A stretch of DNA of 26,956 bases, from IMG/VR virus record IMGVR_UViG_3300046665_000377, positions 1 to 26,956 of that record; one strand, written 5' to 3'. Under the pieces are notes generated by a model. It did not search any database. It was not told the origin of the DNA and was given only the letters and a program-made list of their open reading frames with translations. This DNA comes from a virus. The translations under genes were made by a program, and so were the position numbers. Below are positions 19,003 to 25,096 of this stretch, in pieces. Within the stretch, counting starts at the first letter, position 1, and every line of letters starts with the position of its first letter.

Positions 19003-19683
19003 TTATTGGAATTTTGCATTACCCATCTTGTGGTGACCAATGCGGTCATCCCACATATCCATAACAAGCTGTCCCATAGGTTGATGCTTGTTATAACCGA
19101 ACATTTCCGACATCGTCTTCTTATCCCTGCGTGTTTTCTTGTCCATCGCTAGGTCAGCATCACGTTGCATCCGTTCTGTTTCCTTATTCCGTTCAAGCTT
19201 ACTACCCACACCAATCAACGCAGTGGCTCCAATGAATGCGCCAACCCCTGCTGTAAGCCATCCCGCTCTACCTGCATGAACCTTTGCCTTATCAATGAAT
19301 TTCTCTACATCAATATGGTTAGAGGTCTCTACTATCTTACCTACAGAGACTCCCGCTCCTTTATCTAGGAACTCGCTGATTTGATTACTATGGTTCTTGA
19401 TGATGTAGTTAACAGCAGACTCTGCGCCGATAGCTACTCCCGCGTCTTTGGTAACATCCATGATTGTACTAATAGTGCTTTGGTCTTTGGGATGGCTAGT
19501 AGCTAGACCATAGAGACCGCCAACTACACCAGCGACAGCGGCTCTATGTTTGAATGGCATAGCTGAGTATGTTCGGTAGGAATCTTTAAGCTCGGATGTT
19601 ACAGTGGATTTAAAAGAGGGAGTAATGAGATCGGTAGAAGTCTGCTGTCCACTAAGCTTCAGATCACCTAGATCGTGACTCAT
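19003..19683 (-). CDS. Small protein 4 with two Gly/Ala hydrophobic segments (226 aa)
   Basis: Unrecognised family. Two hydrophobic glycine-rich segments are visible at about residues 47-62 (RAAVAGVVGGLYGLA) and 139-160 (RAGWLTAGVGAFIGATALIG), separated by a mixed helical region. A highly charged stretch follows (KLERNKETERMQRDADLAMD; KKTRRDKK) and then a His/Met-rich end. This could be a two-pass membrane protein or an internal virion protein that inserts on ejection. The ATG overlaps the upstream stop as TAATG with GGTGAT 5 bases ahead, so translation is coupled to the small-terminase candidate. Confidence 0.55.
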   Translation of the reverse strand: MSHDLGDLKLSGQQTSTDLITPSFKSTVTSELKDSYRTYSAMPFKHRAAVAGVVGGLYGLATSHPKDQSTISTIMDVTKDAGVAIGAESAVNYIIKNHSNQISEFLDKGAGVSVGKIVETSNHIDVEKFIDKAKVHAGRAGWLTAGVGAFIGATALIGVGSKLERNKETERMQRDADLAMDKKTRRDKKTMSEMFGYNKHQPMGQLVMDMWDDRIGHHKMGNAKFQ

Positions 19684-20360
19684 TATTCATCACCGTCTTC
19701 TGGTGTTACATCAATAATGGTTGCTCCTTGCATTGCTGCGGCTTGAGCCATAAGTTGAGATGCATAAGTGGATGGATCAAGTTGAATCGTGAGCTTGTCA
19801 CCAGCTTTATCCTTACGAGTAGAGTGAAGTAATTGAAGTACGTCATGACGTTTCTTCAGAAGCTTCTCTTTGTACTCAACCGCTTTATGAATGGCTGGGT
19901 TTTGAATCTCATCGCCTTCTTCAGTGACATGCGTTGTAATCATCTGAATGAAGTCGCCATCGATAGCCAATTTGTTATCTGCACGAGCTAGCTGTACATC
20001 TAAGTCAATTAGATCTTTAACCAGCGTCATATCGATAATATTCTCTTGGTCTACATCCAGTTCTTTTGTGTAAGCTTGGAACTTAGTGAGGATATGACTG
20101 ATCTCAATTGGGCAACGTTCACCTTCTGGGTGCTCATCCACTGCATACAATGGACAAGTATCGCTATATGCGCATCCTTCTCCACGACATACCATTGGAA
20201 TAGACGCATAAAGACCATGCTTAACACGTTGTCTAGTAATAGACTTAGTGATTGCCTTCTTAACTTTGTCTGAAGAACCCCAAGCATCAGGAAGCTCAAC
20301 ACCCATAAGATCATCGATGTGCTCTGATTTTGGCACTATGTATTTATCGTTATCTGACAT
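19683..20360 (-). CDS. Small terminase candidate with Cys4 cluster
   Basis: A protein of 225 aa from the ATG at 20360, which has AAGGAG about 8 bases upstream; the open frame runs on to 20474 without a ribosome binding site. Residues 58-83 hold C58-x4-C63-x5-C69-x13-C83 (MVCRGEGCAYSDTCPL, then GERCPIE), a likely zinc or iron-sulphur site. The following helical region (LVKDLIDLDVQLARADNKLA, IDGDFIQMI, then NPAIHKAVEYKEKLLKKRHD) resembles the general layout of P27-type small terminases, which recognise DNA for packaging. It is the first gene of the late block but is separated from terL by five genes. The terminase call is tentative. Confidence 0.45.
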   Translation of the reverse strand: MSDNDKYIVPKSEHIDDLMGVELPDAWGSSDKVKKAITKSITRQRVKHGLYASIPMVCRGEGCAYSDTCPLYAVDEHPEGERCPIEISHILTKFQAYTKELDVDQENIIDMTLVKDLIDLDVQLARADNKLAIDGDFIQMITTHVTEEGDEIQNPAIHKAVEYKEKLLKKRHDVLQLLHSTRKDKAGDKLTIQLDPSTYASQLMAQAAAMQGATIIDVTPEDGDE

Positions 20361-20463
20361 TCTGCGTTCTCCTTCCCTGAAAATAATAAAAAGCCAGAAC
20401 ACCTTACCCATGTAAGAGGCATCCCAGCTTGAGAAAGGATTATGGGTAGAGTTTCTCACCCGT

Positions 20464-20492
20464 ACCATAACCAATTAGCACCTATTTTTCAA
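20464..20492 (-). promoter_or_regulatory. Sigma-A-type promoter for the late/structural block
   Basis: On the minus strand, TTGAAA (20492-20487) and TATGGT (20469-20464) are separated by exactly 17 bases. Transcription would begin near 20457, about 95 bases before the small-terminase candidate. An inverted repeat TTATGG / CCATAA with an inner GGT-GAG stem (20440-20470) overlaps the -10 and start point and could be an operator or the first hairpin of the leader. Confidence 0.5.
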
Positions 20493-20499
20493 TATAAAT

Positions 20500-20684
20500 A
20501 AATACTAAGAGAAGCCTATCTCTCTCGACCCACGTCTCTCGTTCCACTTGGGAGTCCACCGTGTTTAGGAGATAGCCTTCTCTTAATATGGGAGCTGCGT
20601 TTTTTATAGAAGTGATTATTAGATCTTATCTATCTGTCATCTTCTATAGCCGAAGGCAAGCGACGGGGAGCTCCCAAACCCGTC
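20500..20684. other. Non-coding element with nested long inverted repeats
   Basis: There is no gene between 20361 and 20684. Inside it, 20507-20522 pairs with 20569-20584 (16 bp, one mismatch). TGGGAGCT at 20589-20596 pairs with AGCTCCCA at 20669-20676. Enclosed by that pair, 20605-20615 pairs with 20637-20648 (11 bp, one bulge), capped by TAGAT-ctt-ATCTA. GACGGG (20662-20667) can also pair with CCCGTC (20679-20684), whose loop contains AGCTCCCA, so a pseudoknot or alternative fold is possible. It could be a structured RNA, a packaging site or a cruciform regulatory site. The strand is undetermined. Confidence 0.55.
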
Positions 20685-21587
20685 TTATTTGTTGTTGTGG
20701 GCTAATAATTTGTATAGATTGATTAGTCCCGCACCATACTCAGTGTCTTTCCCGTCTGCACCAAGGTCTACCGACTTAGCTGTAAGCATCTGCATAATGA
20801 TCTCAGGCGTAGCCTTCTGACCCATCTTACGGCAAAGGGATTGAATGATTGCTACACAACCTGCAACCATTGGCGTAGCCATGGAAGTACCAGATAGCTT
20901 AGCGTAGCTTTGGTTCTTATATGTAGAGTAGATCTGAACCCCAGGGGCTGCAACATCAACCTCAGAACCAAAGTTCGAGAAGTCCGCTTTATCAAAGCCA
21001 GCATCAACTGCTCCTACAGCAATTACTTCATCATAAGCAGCAGGCCAACCACAGTGAGTGTGTTCATTACCACTAGCCGCTACTAGGATAATACCTGCTT
21101 GTCTTGCTCGCTTAATAGCGTCGTGAAGGATCGGTCCAGGATCTCCACTAGTTCCTAGTGACATAGAGGCAATATCAATGCCATTCGCTATGCACCAGTC
21201 TAATCCATCTGCAATGGCTTGCATGCCACCAGATCCATTGTCACCCATTACCTTAACTGCGTAGAGTTCTACGGCAGGAGCCACTCCCACAACACCAATT
21301 CCATTATCAGAAGCACCGATAATACCAGCGCAGTGCGTTCCATGTCCTTGACGGTCTTCGTAGTCTCCTCTGTCGGAGGAACTAAAATTAGCGCCACCTT
21401 TAAGGTTAGCCACGAGATCAGGGTGACTACGGTCAATACCAGTATCAAGTATTGCAACTTTGAGTCCTTCTCCCTTTGTTGTACCCCATAGCATAGGAGC
21501 CTGTACGACATTAACGCCCCAATCAATGGTCTGTTGTACTTCTTTCGTCACGAACTGAGGTTCGCTAGCGTATAAATGGAATTCCAA
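20685..21587 (-). CDS. Intracellular subtilisin-like serine protease (S8)
   Basis: A 300-aa protein with an intact catalytic triad: D48 in AILDTGID, H82 in GHGTHCAG, S235 in SGTSMATPM, with oxyanion N174 in ASGNEH. There is no signal peptide, and only about 35 residues precede the catalytic core. This and the segment NVVQAPMLWG resemble Bacillus intracellular subtilisins (ISP) rather than secreted ones. A short N-terminal extension (FHLYASEPQFV) may act like the inhibitory propeptide of ISPs. The start is TTG at 21587, supported by AAGGAGG 9 bases upstream. It is downstream of a terminator and upstream of the structured region. It probably acts in the infected cytoplasm on host or virion proteins; the target is unknown. 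Confidence 0.88.
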   Translation of the reverse strand: MEFHLYASEPQFVTKEVQQTIDWGVNVVQAPMLWGTTKGEGLKVAILDTGIDRSHPDLVANLKGGANFSSSDRGDYEDRQGHGTHCAGIIGASDNGIGVVGVAPAVELYAVKVMGDNGSGGMQAIADGLDWCIANGIDIASMSLGTSGDPGPILHDAIKRARQAGIILVAASGNEHTHCGWPAAYDEVIAVGAVDAGFDKADFSNFGSEVDVAAPGVQIYSTYKNQSYAKLSGTSMATPMVAGCVAIIQSLCRKMGQKATPEIIMQMLTAKSVDLGADGKDTEYGAGLINLYKLLAHNNK

Positions 21588-22856: not shown

Positions 22857-23063
22857 ATGGGATACATAACGTACAACATCCATTATGGACATGGTGAAGT
22901 ATGGACTGAGACTCGTGTCTTCAATGAACTATTTGATATGATGCGTTTAACTAGCCAAGAGTTTTTATCTTCTCTTGCAGAAGAGTATCAAGCCGAATAC
23001 GTGCATGTTGAGTCACTGTACGTCAATGGACAAGAAGTAGGAGCTGAGGCTCTTTGTGTGTAG
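22857..23063 (+). CDS. Small unknown protein (68 aa)
   Basis: First gene of the rightward module, with AAAGGGGAGAG about 7 bases before the ATG and a strong promoter about 35 bases upstream. The protein is acidic and contains one clear helical stretch (ETRVFNELFDMMRLTSQEFL). I see no known motif, signal peptide or membrane segment. Early expression and small size fit a host-takeover or regulatory protein, but nothing in the sequence shows which. Confidence 0.6.
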   Translation: MGYITYNIHYGHGEVWTETRVFNELFDMMRLTSQEFLSSLAEEYQAEYVHVESLYVNGQEVGAEALCV

Positions 23064-23093
23064 AGAAACCTACTTCTAGTCTATATCGTCAAA

Positions 23094-23175
23094 CTCAGGT
23101 AAAACCTGAGGTAGTACGTACTATTAAGTGGGGATCTATAGCTTGGCTAGTGATAAAGATCGTACTAGAGCTATA
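23094..23175 (+). other. Intergenic hairpins and palindrome
   Basis: The 206-base gap between the 68-aa gene and the ribbon-helix-helix gene holds three features. CTCAGGT-AAA-ACCTGAG (23094-23110) is a perfect 7-bp hairpin. TAGTACGTACTA (23112-23123) is a perfect 12-bp palindrome. An imperfect hairpin lies at 23137-23175, in which TATAGCT pairs with AGCTATA and an inner CTAGT with ACTAG. The first lacks a clean U tract. These could be operators, attenuator-like structures or a small RNA. Confidence 0.45.
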
Positions 23176-23206
23176 TGATTTACAGAATAGTAAAACTTAG
23201 AAAACA

Positions 23207-24399: not shown

Positions 24400-24435
24400 T
24401 AAAGAAAAAGGGTGCAGCTTTGGATTAGCCCACCC
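24400..24435 (-). terminator. Terminator after the homing endonuclease
   Basis: The minus-strand RNA forms GGGTGGGCT paired with AGCTGCACCC (9 bp, one bulged G), followed by TTTTTCTTT. The TAA stop lies inside the stem. It isolates the endonuclease transcript from the SASP gene downstream. Confidence 0.8.
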
Positions 24436-25096
24436 GTTGTTTTATGGAGTCATAGAACTCCTTCTTACGCTTCATATAGATAGTAGCATCAGTATACATG
24501 AGTTCATACAACCGCTTAGTGTCATGTACATAGTAACGCATCTGATAATAAGATGTAGCACCTTCAACTAATCCCGTTCTATTCCTCTGCACTAGGGAAA
24601 CTGTAGCTTCTCTTAAACCTAACTGGAATAATTTGTCTCTTAGCCCTTGAGCGAACTGTTCACTTCCTGTAGTGAATCCACTAACTAGTCTAGTCTTCAC
24701 GCCCTTATGTAGCTCAGATGTGAAATGTCCATTACCGTCAAAGTACCCTCGTATAAAGTGAGTGACATACGGCTCTGGTATTTGGGGAAAAGTTTTTGTT
24801 TTTGTTTTGGCTACAGTAACTCCTAGCTCCATTAGTCTGTTGCCCATATGAGTGTTACAAATTACAAGTGAGTAGTAAGGTGAACGTACTGCACTAGTCC
24901 TCACGTTGATCTTGTGTTCCGATTCCATTACATGTTTTAGGGTTTCAATAACCTCCAGATCCGTACTACCGAAGATTAGCATAGGATACTTACCCTTATT
25001 CAAAGATAAACAACCATCCGCATAAATAAAACCAAGAACATACGCCATTTGCTCCGACCACTGATCGAAGAACTCTACGTTAACTTTCTTTGTCAT
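24425..25096 (-). CDS. Free-standing LAGLIDADG homing endonuclease
   Basis: A 223-aa protein with two LAGLIDADG-type helices: AYVLGFIYADG (18-28) and HFIRGYFDGNG (113-123). Each ends in the acidic residue (D27 and D120/N122 region) that coordinates metal. Two motifs in one chain fit a monomeric enzyme that cuts a long DNA site and spreads its own gene. It has its own promoter and terminator and is not inside an interrupted host gene, so it looks free-standing. AGGAGG lies 9 bases before the ATG. The N in GYFDGNG departs from the usual second Asp/Glu and could reduce activity. Confidence 0.85.
   Translation of the reverse strand: MTKKVNVEFFDQWSEQMAYVLGFIYADGCLSLNKGKYPMLIFGSTDLEVIETLKHVMESEHKINVRTSAVRSPYYSLVICNTHMGNRLMELGVTVAKTKTKTFPQIPEPYVTHFIRGYFDGNGHFTSELHKGVKTRLVSGFTTGSEQFAQGLRDKLFQLGLREATVSLVQRNRTGLVEGATSYYQMRYYVHDTKRLYELMYTDATIYMKRKKEFYDSIKQRVG

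Follow-up and report, generated by a model that had tools for sequence, protein, structure and literature searches.

The window analyzed here, which spans a whole virus record (26,956 bases), encodes a TerL that is 60% identical to the TerL of Bacillus phage vB_BauM_KLEB27-3. The portal, tail-sheath, and subtilisin-like protease genes lie in line along the - strand. The late operon, which carries TerL and begins with gene S, has a hairpin element at its head (Table 1). Between the stop codon of the protease gene and the start of S at 20360 no plausible gene was found, and the region 20500-20684 is thus gene-free, as the first-pass annotation had described it. The position that the annotation gave to this region, at the late operon, was also supported. 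Relatives were located via TerL and S. The intergenic region was present in L004, L005/L028, L031/L070, L032, L077 (where it is identical in L078-L081), and KLEB27-3 (L002), and the relatives compared are few and of common ancestry.

Table 1. Coordinates of the genes and of the proposed RNA and promoter features in the window.
Feature	Position	Strand	Remarks
Subtilisin-like protease gene	20685-21587	-	Upstream of the hairpin element; stop codon 20685-20687
GC hairpin GACGGG(11-nt loop)CCCGTC with T-rich tract, candidate intrinsic terminator	20662-20696	+	Ends over the protease stop codon
Mini-hairpin GCC-GAA-GGC	20649-20657	+	Identical in L031, L032, L077, L005, and L002
Hairpin B, directly 5' of GCCGAAGGC	20605-20648	+	Inverted repeat; R1 match
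Segment complementary to loop 20669-20676 (proposed pseudoknot)	20589-20596		Present, unconserved
Hairpin A, 88 nt	20502-20589	+ (candidate strand)	Long stem, internal loop CTCTCGA/TTTAGGA, inner CACG/CGTG helix
Putative late promoter and putative two-state leader upstream of S	20383-20492	-	Conserved in six genomes
Putative late promoter TTGAAA, 17 nt, TATGGT, in the conserved motif TGGTTAYGGTR	20464-20492	-	Sequence motif
Putative antiterminator 5' strand of the late leader	20442-20456	-	Pairing compared with shuffles; two-sided changes
Putative late-leader terminator hairpin	20393-20428	-	3' arm 20393-20411 common to the antiterminator; followed by T tract 20380-20392
Gene S, first gene of the late operon	19683-20360	-	Conserved cysteines

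Two further features of the genomes were observed. In L002, L005, L006, L010, L012, L014, L015, and L017, an insert of ~0.8-1.2 kb, possibly an intein or an intron, splits TerL near residue 79, at the Walker A motif; the TerL of the window and that of L004 carry no insert at this site. The window also contains a LAGLIDADG homing-endonuclease-like gene (24425-25096, - strand).

All inverted repeats that had been claimed for 20500-20684 are present at the sequence level. They comprise 20502-20522/20569-20589 (21 nt, 90%), 20605-20612/20641-20648 (8/8), and 20662-20667/20679-20684 (6/6, read directly), and there is an extra complementarity between 20548-20562 and 20663-20677 (80%). Three maximal exact arms of at least 8 nt were observed compared with 0.25 expected from dinucleotide shuffles, 1 in 200 of which was as high. 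Fold z-scores over 201 nt were -5.4 (+ strand) and -3.7 (- strand). A coarse scan of 207 stretches of 185 nt sampled from the window (12 mononucleotide shuffles, fixed standard deviation) placed the region at the top for the + strand and in second place for the - strand. In the same coarse scan, 23011-23195 was the second-strongest folding stretch of the window with both strands combined. A small + strand gene ends within this stretch, which extends into the intergenic space that follows, and palindromic repeats are visible there by eye.

The same order of parts, namely a hairpin, then GCCGAAGGC, then the GC hairpin with its T-tract, all on the strand opposite to the late genes, is common to L031, L032, L077, and L005. 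In an alignment of the element from four relatives, which was padded by hand, two-sided changes were observed in 15 of 26 pairs and 96% of the cells were paired; none of 500 shuffles was as high, and slid alignments were 38-49% paired. The hand padding of alignments A8 and A11 followed the proposed structures and biases them in favor of these structures. Hairpin A and the hairpin of L004 are both 88 nt long and align without gaps, with 51 identical positions, a nearly identical internal loop, and five outer-stem pairs that changed on both sides, and therefore their homology is clear. The stem letters change by pairs, and the internal loop and GCCGAAGGC are constant. Since the stem sequence turns over with its pairing kept, the element probably functions as a folded strand, and this strand is probably RNA. 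Compensatory changes in relatives, the test named beforehand for a structured non-coding region, support that claim.

The covariance model of the hairpin element, R1, found one strong site per genome, solely at this locus, in the records of L005, L070, L077, and L080. Only chance-level matches were obtained in the other records searched, including those of the complete KLEB27-3, L012, L014, L015, and L039. In the window, R1 matched 20609-20658 on the + strand with 14.3 bits (E of ~1 in 261 kb), the best match outside the training loci, and hairpin A scored 14.5 bits with the filters off. Hairpin A is only weakly linked to the R1 family, because R1 gave no significant match in L004. Judged by position and by GCCGAAGGC, the window element is likely a homolog of the R1 family, and by score this homology is weak. 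KLEB27-3 retains just GCCGAAGGC and the T-rich tail of the element.

The first-pass annotation had also suggested a packaging or recognition site upstream of a small-terminase candidate. A pac or cos site that is recognized or cut as DNA beside the terminase genes would suit an element at the head of the TerL-carrying operon, and it would suit the single strong model match per genome in the phages that have the element. However, it is the pairing and not the stem sequence that is conserved, R1 finds nothing above chance in KLEB27-3 or the L012, L014, L015, and L039 records despite their related TerL or S, S closely follows another gene in L012 and L015, and S is not recognizable as a TerS. Because the stem sequence turns over and R1 did not find the element in relatives with a similar TerL, we regard a packaging site as very unlikely. 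S itself belongs to no family found and has a conserved cysteine motif. Its structure model is all-helical and of low confidence (mean pLDDT 53.8, which is insufficient for a fold search). The position of S and this low-confidence helical model agree with the small-terminase candidate, but no similarity to small terminases was detectable, and on the former two grounds S is possibly a small terminase.

An H-type pseudoknot or a two-state switch had been proposed within 20500-20684, through pairing of 20589-20596 with the hairpin loop 20669-20676. This complementarity is exact (8/8), and ~1% of the region shuffles contain the complement of an 8-mer from this loop, before allowing for the choice of loop. 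Against such a pairing, it is not conserved in the homologous terminator hairpins of the relatives: L031 and L077 have loops of 3-4 nt with no partner, and in L005 the match is 4 nt only. The conserved loop pairing with compensatory changes that would define an H-type pseudoknot was not found among these relatives, and we consider the proposed interaction highly improbable.

The GC hairpin of the window has a 6 bp stem and an 11-nt loop. On the + strand, the T-tract that follows it scored 4.36, compared with a window-wide 99th percentile of 4.04. A GC-rich hairpin followed by a U-tract, the arrangement of an intrinsic terminator, was found on the + strand in each of the five genomes that have the GC hairpin (the window, L031, L032, L077, and L005), with T-tract scores of 4.4-5.3; the tail in L002 is weaker (2.8). 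These signals suggest that the GC hairpin is probably an intrinsic terminator on the strand opposite the late genes. L031 has two small genes, predicted to encode membrane proteins, that lead into the element from the side of the late promoter, and reading frames like these are visible in the sequences of L077 and L005. A hairpin like the covarying one with the constant internal loop is present in the window and L004 without reverse membrane-protein genes. In L070, small reverse-strand membrane-protein genes (SFGQTFWIVYELK / SFLQTLWIIIEIK) separate the hairpin element from the late promoter (L070:3755-4152, - strand). In the window, none of the promoter-like sites that could drive a + strand transcript scored well. 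The wobble pairs of the hairpin element fall on both strands in the four-relative and L004 alignments, and they leave the strand undecided.

The hairpins may also be read in the late sense, as the 3' end of the protease transcript and a forward terminator that shields the late promoter from transcription arriving from upstream. A strong late-sense U-tract also follows the main hairpin in L031, L032, and L077, the better sigma-A-like promoters beside the element in L004 and L005 face the late direction and point into it, and a hairpin with a late-sense T-run can be seen by eye upstream of the late promoter also in L002, L004, and L012. However, the late-sense tail is weak in the window (2.95), L004 (3.56), and L005 (3.71) relative to the 99th percentile given above, the opposite-strand tail is strong in every genome with the GC hairpin, and a conserved internal loop is not required for simple termination. 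This makes termination in the late sense rather doubtful to us. The best reading, with a chance of being right that we take to be about even, is a + strand terminator, which is perhaps one half of a bidirectional one.

A two-state switch did not hold up within 20500-20684, but one is suggested next door. The clearest candidate two-state RNA, the late leader on the - strand at 20383-20457, lies ~40-120 bases outside that region. Upstream of the leader, the motif TGGTTAYGGTR with a -35-like hexamer 17-18 nt before it forms a promoter-like sequence in seven genomes (L004 has CGGTTATGGTA), and the same arrangement was read directly in L012. A pattern scan for the promoter plus terminator found no further phage and gave two chance matches.

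The leader combines an intrinsic terminator before the first gene with a mutually exclusive antiterminator that shares one arm with it, as in attenuators. The terminator helix has 11 pairs, which are 100% paired in six genomes, and its constant G-U wobbles on the - strand would fit an arm that has to pair with two partners. The U-tract scored 4.8-5.5 in 7/7 leaders, and the terminator motif occurs once, upstream of S, in each of the four genomes having it. The antiterminator pairing was better than that of shuffled 5' parts in all six genomes (p of 0.0005-0.026); since the genomes are related, a combined p provides no independent evidence. In a hand-padded alignment, three pairs of the antiterminator helix showed two-sided changes. 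The antiterminator is more stable than the terminator in L031, L032, L077, and L005, and the two are close in the window and L004. No sensor domain was recognized in the leader, which gave no aptamer, leader-peptide, or T-box match, and pairing in trans between the hairpin element and the leader was overall no better than in shuffles. The mutually exclusive helices kept in six genomes point to a two-state on/off switch in the late leader.

Database searches gave no known identity for these elements. No match to any of 4227 Rfam families reached the gathering threshold in the window, and sub-threshold matches appeared only at a relaxed E-value. Yfr10 was rejected with 22 bits against a cut-off of 43, a score that reflects merely two hairpins and a U-run. 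A T-box was considered because CAGGGUGCUUCCGAC slightly resembles a T-box sequence, and it was rejected since the topology differs and there is no Rfam match. DNA similarity in annotated phages was limited to short chance matches. A pattern scan of viral contigs with GCCGAAGGC gave 25 matches, of which only those in the L031 and L032 contigs are real, the rest being unrelated sequence. The profile search of genome contigs with S and TerL found none.

Whether the region is a conserved folded RNA element that punctuates transcription immediately before the late promoter and adjoins a switchable late leader is, in our judgment, an evenly balanced question. This model builds on the structure, its conservation, and the promoter- and terminator-like signals, and from these we infer the transcription, the direction of the hairpin RNA, and the switching. 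In the model, a transcript opposite to the late genes would end at the GC hairpin terminator; it would be the mRNA of the small membrane proteins in some relatives and a short RNA in the window. The upstream hairpin would be the stable 3' part of this transcript or a protein-binding site. The late promoter would fire on the - strand into a leader that folds as a terminator or as an antiterminator with the same 3' arm, so that read-through into the late operon could be switched. The candidate triggers of the switch are a protein, a small molecule, or a modification of the polymerase. More tentatively, and with clearly less confidence than in the model, the element may represent a new family of phage ncRNA of ~110-185 nt, which lies on the strand opposite the late operon, has its own terminator, and has an attenuator of the late operon as its genomic partner; two RNA devices within 320 nt of control region would then time the structural genes of a large Bacillus-type phage.

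The turn-on of structural genes in large Bacillus-type phages appears little described in the literature searched. The conserved putative promoter and the terminator/antiterminator leader directly behind it offer a defined control point that can be tested, and the neighboring hairpins are candidates for an RNA family that Rfam lacks. The prohead RNA (pRNA) of phi29 is a structured phage RNA, and it was considered because packaging genes adjoin the element; unlike it, the element has no Rfam match and no conserved loop-loop pairing. With structured mRNA 3' ends and convergent terminators, the locus shares a GC hairpin and U-tract that would close a counter-oriented transcript, and the reverse genes of L031 run into it. 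It differs from them in an extra covarying hairpin, the constant internal loop, and the GCCGAAGGC mini-hairpin. The leader resembles attenuators and riboswitch expression platforms in its promoter, short leader, exclusive helices sharing one arm, U-tract, and operon. However, a phage late operon would be controlled here, no aptamer, leader peptide, or T-box is matched, and antiterminator strand 1 and terminator strand 2 would compete for strand 3. In phage lambda, an early terminator lies at once downstream of the late promoter pR' and is passed by Q antitermination to express the late genes. The window has a similar layout, with one putative late promoter and then an immediate terminator that would have to be passed for late-gene expression, whereas an RNA antiterminator helix is conserved in the group of the window, unlike in lambda.
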